A stretch of DNA of 64,000 bases from Rhodothermales bacterium (GTDB lineage Bacteria > Bacteroidota > Rhodothermia > Rhodothermales > VXPQ01). The position numbers were made by a program, and so were the translations under genes. How positions within the stretch are numbered: the stretch's first letter is position 1; each line of letters opens with the position of its first letter. Shown in pieces: positions 14,102-20,696 of the stretch. Under the pieces are notes generated by a model. That model saw only the letters and a program-made list of their open reading frames with translations, was not told the DNA's origin and did no database searches. The stretch spans positions 2,142,965 to 2,206,964 of the forward strand of contig OX638295.1 of NCBI GenBank assembly GCA_951812345.1, written 5' to 3'.

Positions 14102-16264
14102 TCAGCTCCCGACCAGCCGGAGCCGATCGAGCGGGATAAAATCCGGACGGAACGCCCCCTTCTCGATGCGATATACGCGGTCTGCCCGAGGCAGGAACGC
14201 AGCCGAATGCGAGGCCACGATCGCAATGCAATCCTTGCGATAGCGATCCAGCACATCCATTGCCTGCTGCGCCGTAGTACTGTCCATAGCGGAAGTGGGC
14301 TCGTCGAGAAGGAGCACCTGCGGATCACGCACCAGTGCCCGGGCCAGGCCTACCAGTTGCTGCTGTCCCCCCGAAAGCGCAGCGCCCCCCTCTCCCACAA
14401 GGGTCAGGTACCCACCGGGCAACATCTCGAAAAAATCGGAAAGTCCGAGTTCCTCGCATTTCCGTATGGTTTCCTGCGGATCGAGCGTAAGACCCAGCCG
14501 GATGTTGTCGACCAGCGTGCCGCTGAATATCCGAACGTTCTGAGGCACGACGCCAAGAATGTCCCGCCATCCGGTCACGGAAAATTCGTTCCAGTCGCAC
14601 CCGTTAATCAGTACCTCCCCCGACTCGGGCACAACAAGGCGCTGTAACATCCGCAACAGCGAAGATTTGCCGGATCCCGTGCTCCCGACAATCAACATGA
14701 GTTCGCCGCAGTGGCAGGTAAATGAAACATCGCCGAGCAAGGTCAACTGGCCCGGGTAACTGAAGGTGACGCGGCGCGCCTCGAGACGCCGTGCAAAATC
14801 GATAGGACTCTTTGCAGCATCTTCTTCCGTGTCGTATTCGGGACTGAGCGAGGTAAACTGATAGATTCTGTCGAAAGCCACCTTCGCCTCCTGAAAATCC
14901 ACATTCGCCGTAGCCAGCGCCTGGGCGCTCGGTACGATCATCCCGATCATTTGCAGGATGGCGATCATCGCCCCGATGCCCATGGCGTCGCCGAGCACAA
15001 GTATCGACGCCCACGCAAGTACGCCGGTAACAATCATAGCGCCGGCAATCGCCAGCACGCCGCCGAACCGTACCGCAACCCGGCCCAGGCGGAAAATCTC
15101 CTCCTGCAGATGGGTGTATGTATCGCGCATCAGCCGGGTAAACACCGATTCTGCATTGGCCGACTTGATCGCCTCGATGCCCCGAATGGCTTCGACGTAC
15201 CCACTCTTGTTCAACGAATGCGCCGTCATGATGCGCTGCTGTCCCTTCACGATAGGCTGGTGGAAATGCCGGGACACCAGAATGAAAAACAGGAGAGCAA
15301 GAGCTACCGCCCCGGCAATCTCCGGGCTGTGGGCATAGATGAACGCCATCCCTGAAACGAGGACAAGCGCCTCGATGACTACGCCGCCCAGCACATGCGT
15401 TACGGTTTGCTGAAGCCGTTCGGTGTCGTTCAGGCGAGCAATCAGGTCTCCCGTCTTCCGGGAGCTGAAAAAAGCATAAGGGAGACGAAGCAGATCGTCG
15501 AGAAATCGCTTCGTGATGCGGTTATTGAACGCGCGGGCCTGCCCCAGAAGAAGCAGTTGCCGGACAATGCCCATACCCGCCTGCGCCGCCAGCACCAGAA
15601 AAAGAAGCACCAGCCCGGCAGCAAGCTGCTCTACGTTCCGTTGCGGGAGTATGTCGTCAATAAGCGCCTTGGAAAAGAGGGCCATTGCGAGACCGAACGC
15701 GGACACGAGGCCGCCTAGTGCAACCGACAGGACAAGAGGGCGCATATCTTCCCGGGTGGCGTCCCGCAACCATCTCCGCCGGGCCGACGCCCGACGTTTT
15801 CGAGTCACGAATCCGCTATCCGGACGCAAGAGCAGAAGCGCCCTGCTCTCCCATACTTTTTCAAGTTCCTCCGCATCATACCAGACAAGGCCGGCCTCCG
15901 GATCGCCAATCAGAAACCTGTCTCCGAAACACCCGAAGAGAACGATGTAATGCTGGCGGATGCCGTTCAGTACTACATGAAGCACCGCCGGCGTCTCCAA
16001 CCCGGCAAGGTCGTCCATCCCTGCCTCATAAGGGTCCGATCTAAGACCGATTTTGCCCGCCGCCTGGTGCAGCCCCAGCAGCGTCGTACCCTGCGACATG
16101 GTGCCGCTGAGGCTACGCAGCCTTTCCATGGTCTCCTCGCCCCCGAAAAAACGGACGACCCACGCAAGGCAGGCCACCCCGCAATCGGACTGATCGAGTT
16201 GCCGGACGACCGACTTCGCCACCCGCTTTGTTGTTTGCCCGCGGAGCTTGTCGTTTCGAATCAT
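14102..16264 (-). CDS. Peptidase C39-containing ABC exporter (bacteriocin-type PCAT)
   Basis: 720 residues. The N-terminal C39 peptidase domain (1-140) has catalytic Cys28 in QSDCGVACLAW, His105 in RQHYIVLFG and Asp121 in IGDPEAG. The family cuts precursors after a double glycine while exporting them. Six membrane helices follow (about 175-455), then an ABC ATPase with Walker A GSTGSGKS (527-534), signature LSGGQQQ (630-636), Walker B LLLDEP (651-656) and H-loop His686. All key residues are intact. The start codon overlaps the stop of the thioredoxin-like gene (ATGA), so the two are translationally coupled. It is the last gene of the operon that holds three double-glycine precursors. No HlyD-type adaptor gene is present in the window. 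Confidence 0.95.
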   Translation of the reverse strand: MIRNDKLRGQTTKRVAKSVVRQLDQSDCGVACLAWVVRFFGGEETMERLRSLSGTMSQGTTLLGLHQAAGKIGLRSDPYEAGMDDLAGLETPAVLHVVLNGIRQHYIVLFGCFGDRFLIGDPEAGLVWYDAEELEKVWESRALLLLRPDSGFVTRKRRASARRRWLRDATREDMRPLVLSVALGGLVSAFGLAMALFSKALIDDILPQRNVEQLAAGLVLLFLVLAAQAGMGIVRQLLLLGQARAFNNRITKRFLDDLLRLPYAFFSSRKTGDLIARLNDTERLQQTVTHVLGGVVIEALVLVSGMAFIYAHSPEIAGAVALALLFFILVSRHFHQPIVKGQQRIMTAHSLNKSGYVEAIRGIEAIKSANAESVFTRLMRDTYTHLQEEIFRLGRVAVRFGGVLAIAGAMIVTGVLAWASILVLGDAMGIGAMIAILQMIGMIVPSAQALATANVDFQEAKVAFDRIYQFTSLSPEYDTEEDAAKSPIDFARRLEARRVTFSYPGQLTLLGDVSFTCHCGELMLIVGSTGSGKSSLLRMLQRLVVPESGEVLINGCDWNEFSVTGWRDILGVVPQNVRIFSGTLVDNIRLGLTLDPQETIRKCEELGLSDFFEMLPGGYLTLVGEGGAALSGGQQQLVGLARALVRDPQVLLLDEPTSAMDSTTAQQAMDVLDRYRKDCIAIVASHSAAFLPRADRVYRIEKGAFRPDFIPLDRLRLVGS

Positions 16265-16788
16265 GGTCTGTCTTCTCCTGCAGCGGCCTCGACAATTTTC
16301 CCGATCGCCTCAAGCCCCTCGAACGATTTGCGCAGACGCCCATCCGGACCATATACGAGGGTCGTCGGCACCACATGGATGCCCAGGTTTTCGCCAAGCA
16401 CCGAGACCGTATCCCGGAGCACATGGAACCAGGGCACGGTATCGATTTCCGTTTCCCGGGCAAACGCCCGTACCGCGTCGCGATCCTCCCAGGCGACGAA
16501 AAACACGTCGTACTCTTTCAGAAGCATTGCCTTTTCCCGAAACGCCTGCAGTTCTGCGCGACAGTACTCGCAAGTGGTCGTAAAAAATACAAGCACAACG
16601 CTCTGCCCCCCGGCGGAACGCAAAGGAACCGATATCCCCTCGAGATTCACGAGATGCGCTTCCGGAAGCTGGAGACGGCGCTCTGCCGCTTCGAGACGCT
16701 CGTTTCGTATATCCCGGGCCTGCACCCCAAGCCATGCTACGACGCCAAGCATGGCCGCTATAGCCAAAACGGCTCCGATCTTCTTCAT
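16261..16788 (-). CDS. Thioredoxin-fold (TlpA/AhpC-TSA-like) membrane-anchored protein
   Basis: 175 residues with one N-terminal membrane anchor (residues 4-22), so the domain faces the periplasm. The thioredoxin fold shows VVLVFFTTTCEYCRAEL with a CxxC site (CEYC) and the cis-proline region HVVPTTLVYGPDGRL. TlpA-like proteins reduce or form disulfides outside the cytoplasm. The gene is preceded by a GAGGGT ribosome binding site that overlaps the end of the membrane-protein gene, and its stop overlaps the exporter start. Two of the precursor peptides in this operon carry four cysteines each, so a role in their disulfide status is a reasonable inference. Confidence 0.88.
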   Translation of the reverse strand: MKKIGAVLAIAAMLGVVAWLGVQARDIRNERLEAAERRLQLPEAHLVNLEGISVPLRSAGGQSVVLVFFTTTCEYCRAELQAFREKAMLLKEYDVFFVAWEDRDAVRAFARETEIDTVPWFHVLRDTVSVLGENLGIHVVPTTLVYGPDGRLRKSFEGLEAIGKIVEAAAGEDRP

Positions 16789-16800
16789 GGCGTGCTACCC

Positions 16801-17475
16801 TCAAAAAACGGAGAGAAGAAAAAACGTGACGCCGGCAACAAGCAACGCCGTGCCGCCACCGTACGAGACCGCAACCAGTAGTGTGACGTTGTGCGGAGGC
16901 CTCTCGGTTACAAGGCGAATAGTGTATACCAGGGCCGCCGCGTAGGCAACCTCAAACAGGTTCAGGGTCCGCAAGAGATAGACGAGCCACATGTTTTCCT
17001 GGTTTATTTCCACGAGATTCACGGCGGAAAGCGGATAAAAAAACGTGCCCGTACCCGGAAAAACGAGTGTCCAGGCAAGATGTGTGAGCGCAGCCAGAAT
17101 CCATACGCTTTCAGCCAGCGAGGCGACATGGAAAAGACTGGAAAAGCGCACGTTCCATGTTATGATCGCAGCGCCCAGAGCAAGGCACACTGTCGTAAAA
17201 CCGATCTTCATGAACACGTACAAAGGCGTAAACGCATACCCTACCCACCGGAGCGGCCCGCTTGCCCGGGGAAGTTGCGGAATACCCTCTTCGGCAGGCG
17301 GCGTCTGCACGTATTCGTCGCTTATCCAATTGATGACAGCATACAGCAGCGCATAGCAGAACGGAAGTAACCAGAACAACCATTTGTCGGGACTTTTTTT
17401 CGACGTGTCGCCGGCGGGCGCGGCCCACCCGCTGGAAGACAGCGCAGCACGCGCCGTATCGTTTCCGAATGTCAT
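16801..17475 (-). CDS. Multi-pass membrane protein in peptide operon (Yip1-like; immunity candidate)
   Basis: 224 residues from the ATG at 17475, preceded by GGAAAGGAATC; longer upstream frames lack a ribosome binding site and cross the hairpin region. A polar N-terminus of about 30 residues is followed by five or six hydrophobic segments (WLFWLLPFCYALLYAVINW, PLYVFMKIGFTTVCLALGAA, VWILAALTHLAWTLVF, MWLVYLLRTLNLFEVAYAAA, VTLLVAVSYGGGTALLV). The arrangement recalls the Yip1 superfamily, but I cannot confirm membership. Its place between the precursors and the export genes suggests self-protection or a processing-complex subunit. No catalytic motif is visible. Confidence 0.75.
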   Translation of the reverse strand: MTFGNDTARAALSSSGWAAPAGDTSKKSPDKWLFWLLPFCYALLYAVINWISDEYVQTPPAEEGIPQLPRASGPLRWVGYAFTPLYVFMKIGFTTVCLALGAAIITWNVRFSSLFHVASLAESVWILAALTHLAWTLVFPGTGTFFYPLSAVNLVEINQENMWLVYLLRTLNLFEVAYAAALVYTIRLVTERPPHNVTLLVAVSYGGGTALLVAGVTFFLLSVF

Positions 17476-17580
17476 CGCAGATTCCTTTCCTGTATCTCGT
17501 GGGACATATCCGCCGACGGCCCCTTTCCTTGTCGGCGCATTCGAAGGATATTTTGCAAAGGGAAAAAGACGATAAGGAAC

Positions 17581-17613
17581 GTGGGGGCGGATACGGAACG
17601 TACCCGCCCCCAC
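17581..17613 (-). terminator. Strong intercistronic hairpin after the precursor genes
   Basis: Perfect 10-base arms GTGGGGGCGG (17581-17590) and CCGCCCCCAC (17604-17613). The inner bases TACG/CGTA also pair, giving a stem of about 15 pairs with a 3-base loop in the minus-strand transcript. It starts 7 bases past the stop of precursor C. A loose T-rich stretch (CTTATCGTCTTTTT) follows about 10 bases later. A second, weaker inverted repeat (CGCCGAC/GTCGGCG, 17511-17537) lies further downstream. Likely a partial terminator or a 3' stabiliser that favours precursor mRNA over export-gene mRNA. Confidence 0.6.
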
Positions 17614-17619
17614 CGCTCG

Positions 17620-17793
17620 TCAACTTCCGCAGAGCGCATAGCACAGGGCATTCCCTGCCAACCCCATCGGATTGAAGGGACCGGGACCGGAGCATAGCCA
17701 CCAGGCCAGAAGGTAATGCGGGGATTTCCCGTCGCACGGGGTGTTGGCGCCGCCAGACACGGCAGCCATTCGGATAGCGTCAAGGATTTTCAT
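17620..17793 (-). CDS. Double-glycine-leader precursor peptide C (4 Cys)
   Basis: 57 residues, start fixed by the AAAGGTGA ribosome binding site about 7 bases upstream of the ATG. The leader MKILDAIRMAAVSGG ends in Gly-Gly, the cleavage signal for C39 exporters such as the one in this operon. The 42-residue core is rich in Gly, Trp and Pro (LLAWWLCSGPGPF) and has Cys at 20, 34, 51 and 55, ending CYALCGS. The CxxxC pair near the end also occurs in precursor A. It lies 41 bases downstream of precursor B and just before the strong hairpin. Ser/Thr and Cys in the core could be modified by the glycosyltransferase of the operon; the site is unknown. A longer frame over the same bases (17472-17783) has no start signal and reads through the hairpin. 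Confidence 0.85.
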   Translation of the reverse strand: MKILDAIRMAAVSGGANTPCDGKSPHYLLAWWLCSGPGPFNPMGLAGNALCYALCGS

Positions 17794-17834
17794 GGTCAAT
17801 CACCTTTGAATTTGAGATTCGATAACGAAGGACA

Positions 17835-18059
17835 TCAACTGGTGGAAAGCCTGCATATCACAAGCCCTCCTATGGCGCCGGCGGCGTAGCCGATAGCCGC
17901 AGCCACCGTGGCCGCCCCTCCGGTGGCGACCCCGAGCGCAATCGCTCCGACAATCGAACCGCCCACCATCGACGACGGGATCGTGACACCAAGAGTCCGC
18001 CAGATGTTTTTGCAGTTGCCTCCGGCAAGCTGCATTTGTTCAAGCGTCAATGTTTTCAT
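17835..18059 (-). CDS. Double-glycine-leader precursor peptide B (class II bacteriocin-like, glycine-rich)
   Basis: 74 residues from the ATG at 18059, which has the ribosome binding site AAGGTGA at the same spacing as the other precursor C. Leader MKTLTLEQMQLAGG is a textbook double-glycine type. The 60-residue core is strongly hydrophobic and Gly/Ala-rich with repeated GxxxG-type spacings (SIVGAIALGVATGGAA, AIGYAAGAIGG) and Cys16 and Cys69 near its two ends. This resembles pore-forming class II bacteriocins. The frame is open far upstream of the ATG, but no leader-like start exists there. It lies 64 bases after the glycosyltransferase gene. Confidence 0.87.
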   Translation of the reverse strand: MKTLTLEQMQLAGGNCKNIWRTLGVTIPSSMVGGSIVGAIALGVATGGAATVAAAIGYAAGAIGGLVICRLSTS

Positions 18060-18123
18060 GGTTTTCACCTTTTCAAGGAATTTGGACATAGCAACAACCC
18101 ACGCAGCGTCGAAAAGCCACGAC

Positions 18124-20316
18124 CTACGCGACGCCGACTTCGTCCATGCGCACCTGTCTGGCGCACAGCACGATGTCGGACCAGTGTTGCACGAGTGTTC
18201 CATATGCGCCGACCAGATCGCGCAAGCGTGATCTGCGTTCGGCTGCATTGCCGGCCAGATCGACCGGCGCATTGCATTCCTGCTGCGTAACAAACCGCTC
18301 CAGCGCATCTGCGAGGTGCCCCATATCCGCCCGCATGGAGGGAATCGATCCGGCAGGACCCGATAACGCATGTTCGATGTGCAGCATCAGCATCCCTAAG
18401 GATCGCTCTACGGCAGCCCTGCACGCAAGATCGAAGTCGGGCTGGTCAAGCGATCCATACGCCGCCAGACGATCCCCAAGGTCGCACAGTCTGCGAGGGA
18501 ACGGATCGAGCTGAGAGGCCCCCCATTCCGCGATCAGGGCCGTAAGGATGTCGTTGGTCCTGAAACCATCGAACACGATCTCCGCCGGAAACGGCGCACG
18601 CTCCTGCGGGGGACGATGCCCGATGGCATACCCCTCGCAAAATCCCCGAAGCAGCAGAGGCAAGACGGCTTCCAGCGTTGCGCTGAATACGCCGTCCTCA
18701 TTGCGCCCCGCGGGCATGAATGGGGGAAGCGTTTGCCGGTTGTCGATGCCCACATTCATGCCGAGACAGAACAACCCGTTGCCGATGGTACGGCGCGTAA
18801 CGGTCCGCCCCACCTCACGGGTACGCATGCCTTCCGAATATCCGCACCGGACCAGCCTGCCAAGGGAAGCCCCTTCCAGAAATAGCCTCGACACATTCGA
18901 CGATGTACCGGCATCCCCTGTATGGCCGATGAAGGTAAGCCCAATCCGGGCATCCGACAGACGCTGCAACAGGTGCGGCTGCAAGTCATCTACGTCAATA
19001 TCTTCCCGGCCGGATTCCTCCAGCAGGTGCGCAACCGGACACCCAAGGAGCGTTTCGTGCATTGCGACAAAGTCCGCCCCCTCTGCCGGCTCCCAATCGC
19101 AAGCGCCGAACCAGTACTCGTTGGGATCGGCTTGCGAAGAAAGAGCTATACCGGATCGGGTATCCGGCGCCTCAAACAGAGGCAGCCTCGTGTCGTCATC
19201 AACATGCACGGAAAGCTCGCCCGCGGTAGCCAGCAAAAGCGCATTCCGGTTCGCCCCGTAATTCGTGTCGCACGTTTCGTGCCCATAGAGTGCGAATTGC
19301 AATACGTCGGGACCGCAACCGGTCTCGTCCGCCAGCGTGCGGACCAGGTTTGCCCGCCAGTTCTCATCGAGATACTCCACCTCGATATCGATATCTTCTC
19401 GCAAGACATCGAGGGCCGACGCGAGCCGCGCCTGATCCGGTGCGGAAGAGCTATCTGCAACAACGAATCGTACCCGGCGTCCGTGCATGGACGCATTCGC
19501 ATGATAGGATCGAAGCGCTGCAAGCACACTGCCTGCACGATTGCGGGTCGGGATGCCGATCGCCGATATCCCGTCGCCCCCGTCGGGAAAGGCTGCGCTG
19601 TCCGTCCCATAACACATCACCTCTTCCCGGACAGCGGTTTCCGCGGTCAGCATGCCGTCGTCGATCCACCTGCGCCACGTTCCGGAATCCACCACACCCG
19701 CAACCCCGCCGGCATAGTCCCGGCGTATCCGACTCTCGTGGGCGGCAATGCTCCGAAACCGGTCCGCCTTGAAAAGTTGCTGCGCTTCCGTTGCGAGCAA
19801 AATTCTGGCCGCGCCCGTACGTCGCGAACGAATCAGGACACGATCACTTCCCAGGCCCACCGCTTCCACATCAAAACAACGATACCGCTCCGCGTCGACG
19901 CGCACGGTAGCGCGTTTCGTCACACCGTCGGCATACAACAACATGCGAGACATCCACCAGCGAGCAAGGTCCGGCGGCCCAACCCGCCGGACACCTCGCT
20001 TCGGATCTCCGATAACGTATTTCCCGGACCGGAAACCGTAGTACACCACAAACCTGCCCTTCCTCTCCTCGTCTTCCCAATGCAGGATTACCGGCGCCTC
20101 AAGGGTTCTCAGGCCGGACAGGGTTCCTTCGTACCCTCGCACATCGAGCCCGGCGTCCGAAAGCGCCTCGTACAGATCCAGCATGGATTCGCCGCATACA
20201 TGGATTCCATCGCTATCGACGCCGTGATGATTTAGCAGCGCCGCCACACACGCTCTTTCTCCCGATGGTTCTTCCATGGCGCGAGCAAATGCCCGCTTGA
20301 CACGTTGCGGATCCAT
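18124..20316 (-). CDS. Fusion of degenerate C39-like leader-binding domain and GT2-type glycosyltransferase
   Basis: 730 residues. Residues 15-128 align by eye with the C39 domain of the neighbouring exporter (RACVAALLNHHG with DCGVACLAWVVRFFG; RFVVYYGFRSGKYVIGDP with HYIVLFGCFGDRFLIGDP). The catalytic Cys is Gly19 and the catalytic His is Arg88, while Asp104 remains, so it cannot act as a cysteine peptidase. Residues about 130-245 are a linker of unclear fold. From 249 a GT-A pattern starts: GIPTRNRAGSVLAALRSY, VRFVVADSSS, GANRNALLLATAG, then VDDDTR (373-375), a DxD-type metal/nucleotide-sugar motif. The remaining 300 residues are mostly helical with no motif I know. I infer it docks the double-glycine leaders and glycosylates the cores, as GT2-type SunS enzymes do for glycocins. 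Donor sugar and acceptor residue are unknown. Confidence 0.7.
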   Translation of the reverse strand: MDPQRVKRAFARAMEEPSGERACVAALLNHHGVDSDGIHVCGESMLDLYEALSDAGLDVRGYEGTLSGLRTLEAPVILHWEDEERKGRFVVYYGFRSGKYVIGDPKRGVRRVGPPDLARWWMSRMLLYADGVTKRATVRVDAERYRCFDVEAVGLGSDRVLIRSRRTGAARILLATEAQQLFKADRFRSIAAHESRIRRDYAGGVAGVVDSGTWRRWIDDGMLTAETAVREEVMCYGTDSAAFPDGGDGISAIGIPTRNRAGSVLAALRSYHANASMHGRRVRFVVADSSSAPDQARLASALDVLREDIDIEVEYLDENWRANLVRTLADETGCGPDVLQFALYGHETCDTNYGANRNALLLATAGELSVHVDDDTRLPLFEAPDTRSGIALSSQADPNEYWFGACDWEPAEGADFVAMHETLLGCPVAHLLEESGREDIDVDDLQPHLLQRLSDARIGLTFIGHTGDAGTSSNVSRLFLEGASLGRLVRCGYSEGMRTREVGRTVTRRTIGNGLFCLGMNVGIDNRQTLPPFMPAGRNEDGVFSATLEAVLPLLLRGFCEGYAIGHRPPQERAPFPAEIVFDGFRTNDILTALIAEWGASQLDPFPRRLCDLGDRLAAYGSLDQPDFDLACRAAVERSLGMLMLHIEHALSGPAGSIPSMRADMGHLADALERFVTQQECNAPVDLAGNAAERRSRLRDLVGAYGTLVQHWSDIVLCARQVRMDEVGVA

Positions 20317-20448
20317 ACTATCCCCACTGATGCGGCCGGATACCCCGACTTCCTTGTCTCACGAACTTATTCTTCAGGAACTGCTCCGCTTCGACACGCT
20401 GCGTCTGTCTTGTTTGCTTCCGCAGCAAGAACACACGCGCTCCGGTCA

Positions 20449-20637
20449 CTAACTGCAGAATCTCCGGCAGGCGCTGCCGTACCGGCGGGCAGTGCCCACG
20501 ACACCTCCCCAACCCGTCCGGCTGAACCCAACTACAGCGCCGACCACTGTGCAGCCGGTCACGATGTACGACGTCAGCCTGCCGCAACGCGACGTGCCAC
20601 CCATGTGCTGCATTTCCTCCAATGAAAGAGTCCTCAT
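20449..20637 (-). CDS. Double-glycine-leader precursor peptide A (4 Cys)
   Basis: 62 residues, first gene of the operon, with a strong GAGGTGG ribosome binding site 5-6 bases before the ATG. Leader MRTLSLEEMQHMGG ends in Gly-Gly and is clearly related to that of precursor B (T-L-x-L-E-x-M-Q). The 48-residue core is cationic and glycine-rich (TVVGAVVGFSRTGWGG, TARRYGSACRRFCS) with Cys at 18, 29, 57 and 61; the last two form the same C-x3-C spacing as in precursor C. The glycosyltransferase gene starts 132 bases downstream. No immunity gene is seen directly next to it. Confidence 0.85.
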   Translation of the reverse strand: MRTLSLEEMQHMGGTSRCGRLTSYIVTGCTVVGAVVGFSRTGWGGVVGTARRYGSACRRFCS

Positions 20638-20664
20638 AATTCCACCTCACAAACAGGGTTTGAA

Positions 20665-20696
20665 ATAAGTAAAACCGGCTCCCGATCCGGCGCAAA
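20665..20696 (-). promoter_or_regulatory. Candidate promoter of the peptide operon
   Basis: On the minus strand TTTG (about 20693-20696) is followed after about 21 bases by TACTTAT (20665-20671), close to the Bacteroidota pattern TTTG-N(17-23)-TAxxTTTG. It lies about 30 bases upstream of the ATG of precursor A. The -7 match is imperfect. Confidence 0.3.

Follow-up and report, generated by a model that had tools for sequence, protein, structure and literature searches.

A bacteroidetocin-type gene cluster in Rhodothermales carries a putative precursor-modifying glycosyltransferase fused to a dead C39 domain

Gene content and conservation of the locus

We analysed a 64-kb stretch of DNA (64,000 nucleotides; the window) from a 2.8 Mb genome that is assembled as one contig and to which, among named genomes, Rhodothermales MAGs are closest. 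The seven co-directional genes called by the first-pass annotation are all present, on the minus strand at 14102-20637 (Table 1). They are separated by short gaps, and the last two overlap by 4 bases, an operon-like layout. In order of transcription they encode precursor peptide 1 (pep1), a 730-aa fusion protein, precursors 2 and 3 (pep2 and pep3) and a membrane protein, followed by a TlpA-like thiol oxidoreductase and, last, a C39 exporter. The exporter retains all of its C39 catalytic residues (Cys28, His105 and Asp121), as originally reported, and the protein that had been described as having a CxxC thioredoxin fold proves to be a TlpA-like oxidoreductase of the disulfide type.

Table 1. 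Genes of the cluster and domains of the fusion protein, with positions in the window.
Feature	Position	Strand	Description
Precursor peptide 1 (pep1)	20449-20637	-	62 aa; leader MRTLSLEEMQHMGG, core TSRCGRLTSYIVTGCTVVGAVVGFSRTGWGGVVGTARRYGSACRRFCS, 4 Cys in core
Fusion	18124-20316	-	730 aa; dead C39 domain, linker domain, GT2-like glycosyltransferase, helical C-terminus
C39-like domain (fusion residues 22-130)	19927-20253	-	PF03412 Peptidase_C39, E 1.3e-11
Linker domain (residues ~140-245)	19582-19899	-	common to C39-less GT relatives; weakly PqqD/RRE-like
GT-A core (residues ~249-570)	18607-19572	-	PTxNR, GANRN, DDD (373-375), RNED and HRPP motifs
Precursor peptide 2 (pep2)	17835-18059	-	74 aa; leader MKTLTLEQMQLAGG, core NCKNIWRTLG...GLVICRLSTS, 2 Cys, Gly-rich
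Precursor peptide 3 (pep3)	17620-17793	-	57 aa; leader MKILDAIRMAAVSGG, core ANTPCDGKSPHYLLAWWLCSGPGPFNPMGLAGNALCYALCGS, 4 Cys
Membrane protein	16801-17475	-	224 aa from ATG; bacteroidetocin-module TM family
TlpA/ResA-like thiol oxidoreductase	16261-16788	-	175 aa; N-terminal anchor, CEYC motif; AhpC-TSA E 4e-12
C39 peptidase-containing ABC exporter	14102-16264	-	720 aa; PF03412 5e-27, PF00664, PF00005

In close relatives, orthologous clusters framed by the same flanking genes as in the window occur at loci L023, L024 and L026 (the last in genome G313), and a further copy lies on a short contig whose end cuts it (L025, the same as L054). Comparison of close relatives indicates purifying selection on all genes, with dN/dS values of 0.18-0.26 for the fusion, 0.11-0.13 for the exporter and 0.07-0.38 for the peptides.

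Three precursor peptides with double-glycine leaders

The open reading frames of the whole 64-kb window were scanned with the leader pattern M[KRQNE][TIAK]L-x8-11-GG. The only matches are pep1, pep2 and pep3, as compared with 0-3 matches (mean 0.5) per 64 kb in Markov shuffles, which together with the dN/dS range of the peptides bears out the earlier call of three double-glycine precursors. Their leaders are 14, 14 and 15 aa long and end in GG, and the mature peptides would be 42-60 aa. Pep1 has orthologues at L023, L024 and L026, with dN/dS 0.07 between L023 and L024 and 0.35 against L026.

Every precursor beside the fusion has a C-terminal Ser, namely pep1-3 of the window and a precursor at a second locus of G313 (L027:10833-11057). 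When precursor families are counted, four of four beside the fusion end in Ser, as against 3 of the 12 in modules that lack the glycosyltransferase (GT) (Fisher p 0.02, a post hoc comparison). The C-terminal Ser is a candidate acceptor or recognition site.

The cluster contains a bacteroidetocin-type module

The regions that encode bacteroidetocins comprise four genes, for a five-TM protein, a small double-glycine peptide, a thiol oxidoreductase and a C39 ABC exporter (PMC6671954, Coyne et al. 2019). The leaders of these peptides are about 15-16 aa long and end in GG, and the peptides have at least 2 Cys and a mature length of 42-48 aa; the TM protein and the oxidoreductase are required for full toxin activity and confer no immunity (PMC6671954). 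The paper makes no mention of glycosylation.

The window has the thiol oxidoreductase, the C39 exporter and Cys-bearing double-glycine peptides whose leaders fall slightly short of the published length. Its membrane protein, with 3-5 hydrophobic segments by hydropathy, belongs to the same family as the TM proteins at C39/oxidoreductase/double-glycine loci of other Bacteroidota, including L110 (E 1e-15). Assigned by gene set, the membrane protein, TlpA-like protein, C39 exporter and double-glycine Cys peptides are thus the published bacteroidetocin module, and the first-pass statement that no system with this gene set had been described does not hold for these four kinds of gene (PMC6671954). 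The mature sizes are also comparable, and the window differs from bacteroidetocin loci in having three precursors and an added C39-like/GT fusion. By gene set, the fusion and the number of precursors appear to be the only additions to the known module. We had considered the membrane protein as an immunity protein, a candidate that was dropped because the corresponding TM protein of bacteroidetocin loci did not protect (PMC6671954).

Homologues of the membrane protein were found in 20 of 296 phylum genomes and 13 of 245 class genomes. Some of them (L103-L107, L109) belong to another paralogue and have no C39 exporter in their neighbourhood. In the genus of the window, in family f16 of its class (probably Balneolaceae) and in several other families, the neighbours of the membrane protein are a C39 exporter, a TlpA-like protein and Cys peptides rich in Gly; an example of a leader at these modules is MRTLSLEKMEQIEGG. 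Homologous modules thus occur in many Bacteroidota/Balneolaceae genomes, mostly without the fusion enzyme.

Two of these modules carry an extra gene between the oxidoreductase and the exporter, in each case unrelated to the fusion GT: an MGT-family GT1 gene (L095:6012-7505, E 5e-27) and a gene of DUF6625, a family of unknown function (L102:5421-6263, E 1e-59), which we read as a glycosyltransferase from its DxD motif. A second membrane-protein/oxidoreductase/exporter module of genome G301 lies at the end of a contig, and its exporter gene is apparently split by a frameshift (L114:6506-10154).

A dead C39 domain is joined to a GT2-like domain

In the C39-like domain of the fusion the catalytic Cys is replaced by Gly and the His by Arg, and the Asp is kept; the domain therefore lacks the Cys and His that mark an active peptidase. 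The corresponding domain at L027 has Ser in place of Cys and Glu in place of His. A profile search of the PDB with the fusion returned relatives of LahT, PCAT1 and ComA, which matched the C39 part alone. The C39-like domains of type I exporters of the HlyB type bind their substrate and do not cleave it. They are likewise dead C39 folds used in substrate binding, but are carried by an ABC transporter, whereas the domain described here sits on a soluble modifying enzyme. Between this domain and the GT lies the linker, for which hhalign gave a weak match to PqqD, with a score of 17.9 (best shuffle, 13.6) and a probability of 2%.

The GT domain reaches no curated family cut-off. In the window its only Pfam match is DUF6271 (PF19787, E 8e-5, below cut-off), and the Pfam search found no PF00535 match in the window fusion. 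In its relatives Glycos_transf_2 (PF00535) is matched at the same place, always below threshold, by five proteins at E 0.001-0.02 and a sixth at E 0.1, and the TIGR04440 and MftF (TIGR03965) glycosyltransferase models match the family weakly. A stronger signal came from hhalign, in which a profile of 12 relatives aligned to GT2 enzymes of the same genome with a score of 41.5 (E 5e-5, probability 68%), as compared with 18.3 for the best of 40 column-shuffles. The alignment pairs the PTxNR, DxS, xRN and DDD motifs, and the fusion has the ordered GT-A motifs PTxNR, DxS, RN, DxD and ED. Among 13 relatives, including phage and cyanobacterial plasmid proteins, the DDD, RN and PP motifs are invariant, the RxED region is nearly so, and a PP(F)xP...R..D region is likewise conserved.

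On the evidence of the sub-threshold PF00535, TIGR04440 and MftF matches, the hhalign scores relative to shuffles and the conserved motifs, the domain is well supported as a diverged GT2-like GT-A glycosyltransferase. It resembles PF19787, PF00535 and MftF in its GT-A motifs and sub-threshold matches, and differs from them in its fusion architecture and in scoring below their cut-offs. PDB profile searches with the GT part gave insignificant matches (chondroitin synthase, E 0.6), and an AlphaFold2 model of the fusion, built from four closely related sequences, reached a pLDDT of 34, so that fold and active site are assigned from profiles. The large protein had been described as joining C39-like and GT2-type domains, with residues 249-430 put forward for a profile check of the GT-A fold; both the architecture and the fold are upheld by the profile comparisons.

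Distribution of the fusion and of its GT relatives

A search of 394 phylum genomes and 114 order genomes found the C39-GT fusion in the genus of the window only; we had considered that the fusion might be widespread and gave this up. The fusions are those of the window, L023, L024/L061, L027 (a diverged second locus of G313) and, in decayed form, L026, and all of them adjoin double-glycine peptides, a membrane protein, an oxidoreductase and an exporter. In contrast, no double-glycine peptide was found near the C39-less GT relatives (L028, L029, L030, L052, L055, L056, L058 and L062). The first-pass annotation had named homologues without such peptides nearby as evidence against its reading; these exist for the GT domain alone and not for the C39-GT fusion.

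The C39-less relatives lie in varied surroundings. At L028:7523-11663 and L029:10321-14800 they are found beside short Cys-rich peptides with Sec signals and six-bladed beta-propellers, possibly a second setting for peptide glycosylation. L052 and L056 adjoin short signal-peptide proteins, L055 lies near one such protein, and no recognised peptides are present at L030. At L058:6264-12503 the GT domain is fused behind an FkbH domain and a carrier protein, with an NRPS gene adjacent, and at L062:7974-9446 a stand-alone relative lies among the tail and structural genes of a phage contig (IMG/VR). The window GT domain itself had no homologue in the phage and plasmid collections; a different GT query retrieved one distant cyanobacterial plasmid protein from the plasmid collection (E 0.03).

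Monophyly of the C39-fused enzymes is rejected by a tree of the GT domains (AU p 8e-5), which implies either two gains of the C39 domain or one gain followed by losses. In the tree of the C39 domains, a single origin of the fused domains was not rejected (p 0.17). In both fused GT lineages, the dead C39 domain accompanies double-glycine substrates.

At L026:9353-10209 (locus 1 of G313) most of the C39-like and linker part of the fusion and its C-terminus have been deleted, and pep2 is lost; pep1 and pep3 are kept and look intact. This pattern suggests that the enzyme is dispensable or that the locus is decaying. In the diverged second locus of G313, a transposase that we read as IS1595 type lies between the precursor and the membrane protein (L027:11358-12407).

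Proposed mechanism and alternatives

We consider it reasonably probable that the locus combines a bacteroidetocin-type export module with a precursor-modifying glycosyltransferase added in this genus, in which the dead C39 domain would hold the leader and the cores would be glycosylated before export. The three precursors would be made in the cytoplasm, where the dead C39 domain may bind the leader uncut and present the core to the GT-A domain of the same protein, which would move a sugar from an activated donor onto it. Candidate acceptors are the Ser with which all precursors end, or Ser, Thr or Cys in the core. The live C39 domain of the exporter would then cut after GG and export the core. 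Outside, the disulfides of the core would be formed or corrected by the anchored TlpA-like protein. As at bacteroidetocin loci, the product would reach full activity only with the membrane protein. That the sugar is added before export is suggested by the fusion of the GT to a dead leader-binding domain. We infer an antibacterial function for the product.

Glycocins (sublancin SunA/SunS, glycocin F, thermoglycocin ThgS; PMC12457901) also have a double-glycine-type precursor, a GT, thioredoxin-like proteins and a C39 exporter clustered together. The enzyme of the window differs in lying outside the SunS family and in having an N-terminal dead C39 domain, and the cluster is otherwise of bacteroidetocin type and in a Bacteroidota/Rhodothermota host. 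The first-pass annotation saw a Rhodothermota/Bacteroidota counterpart of SunS-type glycocins; the host setting is supported, but kinship with SunS is not, no SunS-type family being among the NCBIfam matches. Because the GT is not of the SunS family, 'counterpart of glycocins' is an analogy.

The cluster could instead be a plain bacteroidetocin-type system in which the GT fusion serves self-protection or acts on another target, such as a surface protein or the exporter complex. The core module functions elsewhere without a GT (PMC6671954), most homologous loci found here likewise have none, and two peptides persist at L026 although the fusion has decayed. The GT at L095 is similar to enzymes of macrolide self-immunity (OleI/MGT), and protection of the producer could thus be the role of a GT at a locus of this kind. 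However, that the enzyme carries a dead leader-peptidase domain suggests the precursors as its substrate, C39 domains are carried by the GTs near double-glycine peptides and are absent from GTs elsewhere, and the fusion is under purifying selection. We therefore regard a target other than the precursors as unlikely. Less probable still is that the GT-like domain has no catalytic activity, or transfers a group that is not a sugar, and that the fusion acts as a chaperone or adaptor by which precursors are kept ready for the exporter. A dead C39 domain would lend itself to the role of an adaptor, other C39-like domains are known to bind without cleavage, and the GT domain passes no curated cut-off; but the match to the GT2 profile and the motif conservation across 13 relatives, phage and cyanobacterial proteins among them, argue against an adaptor free of catalysis.

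A different question is what the peptides do. Double-glycine peptides of C39 exporters can have signalling or biofilm roles, for instance in cyanobacteria (PMC4997328), and the peptides here could be signals or biofilm factors and not bacteriocins, whether glycosylated or not. This would be compatible with glycosylation of the precursors before export, but the cores, rich in Gly and with Cys, and the gene set shared with bacteroidetocins make it improbable.

Implications

The locus is a variant of the bacteroidetocin-type system and not a wholly new one; the 730-aa fusion is its new part. More tentatively, the enzymes might form a new family of peptide glycosyltransferases with one route through a dead C39 leader-binding domain, possibly acquired twice, for double-glycine precursors of bacteroidetocin-type clusters and a C39-less route for Cys-rich signal-peptide peptides beside beta-propellers, in which case the products of the window might be the first glycosylated bacteroidetocin-like peptides.

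If the proposed mechanism is true, peptide glycosylation, known in the glycocins of Gram-positive bacteria, extends to bacteroidetocin-type peptides of Bacteroidota and their relatives, and does so through an unrelated family of enzymes that can be recognised by their architecture, a dead leader peptidase joined to a glycosyltransferase. A dead C39 domain that acts as a portable leader-binding module would give a simple rule, open to test, for the way in which modifying enzymes take on double-glycine substrates, and it offers a handle for genome mining.
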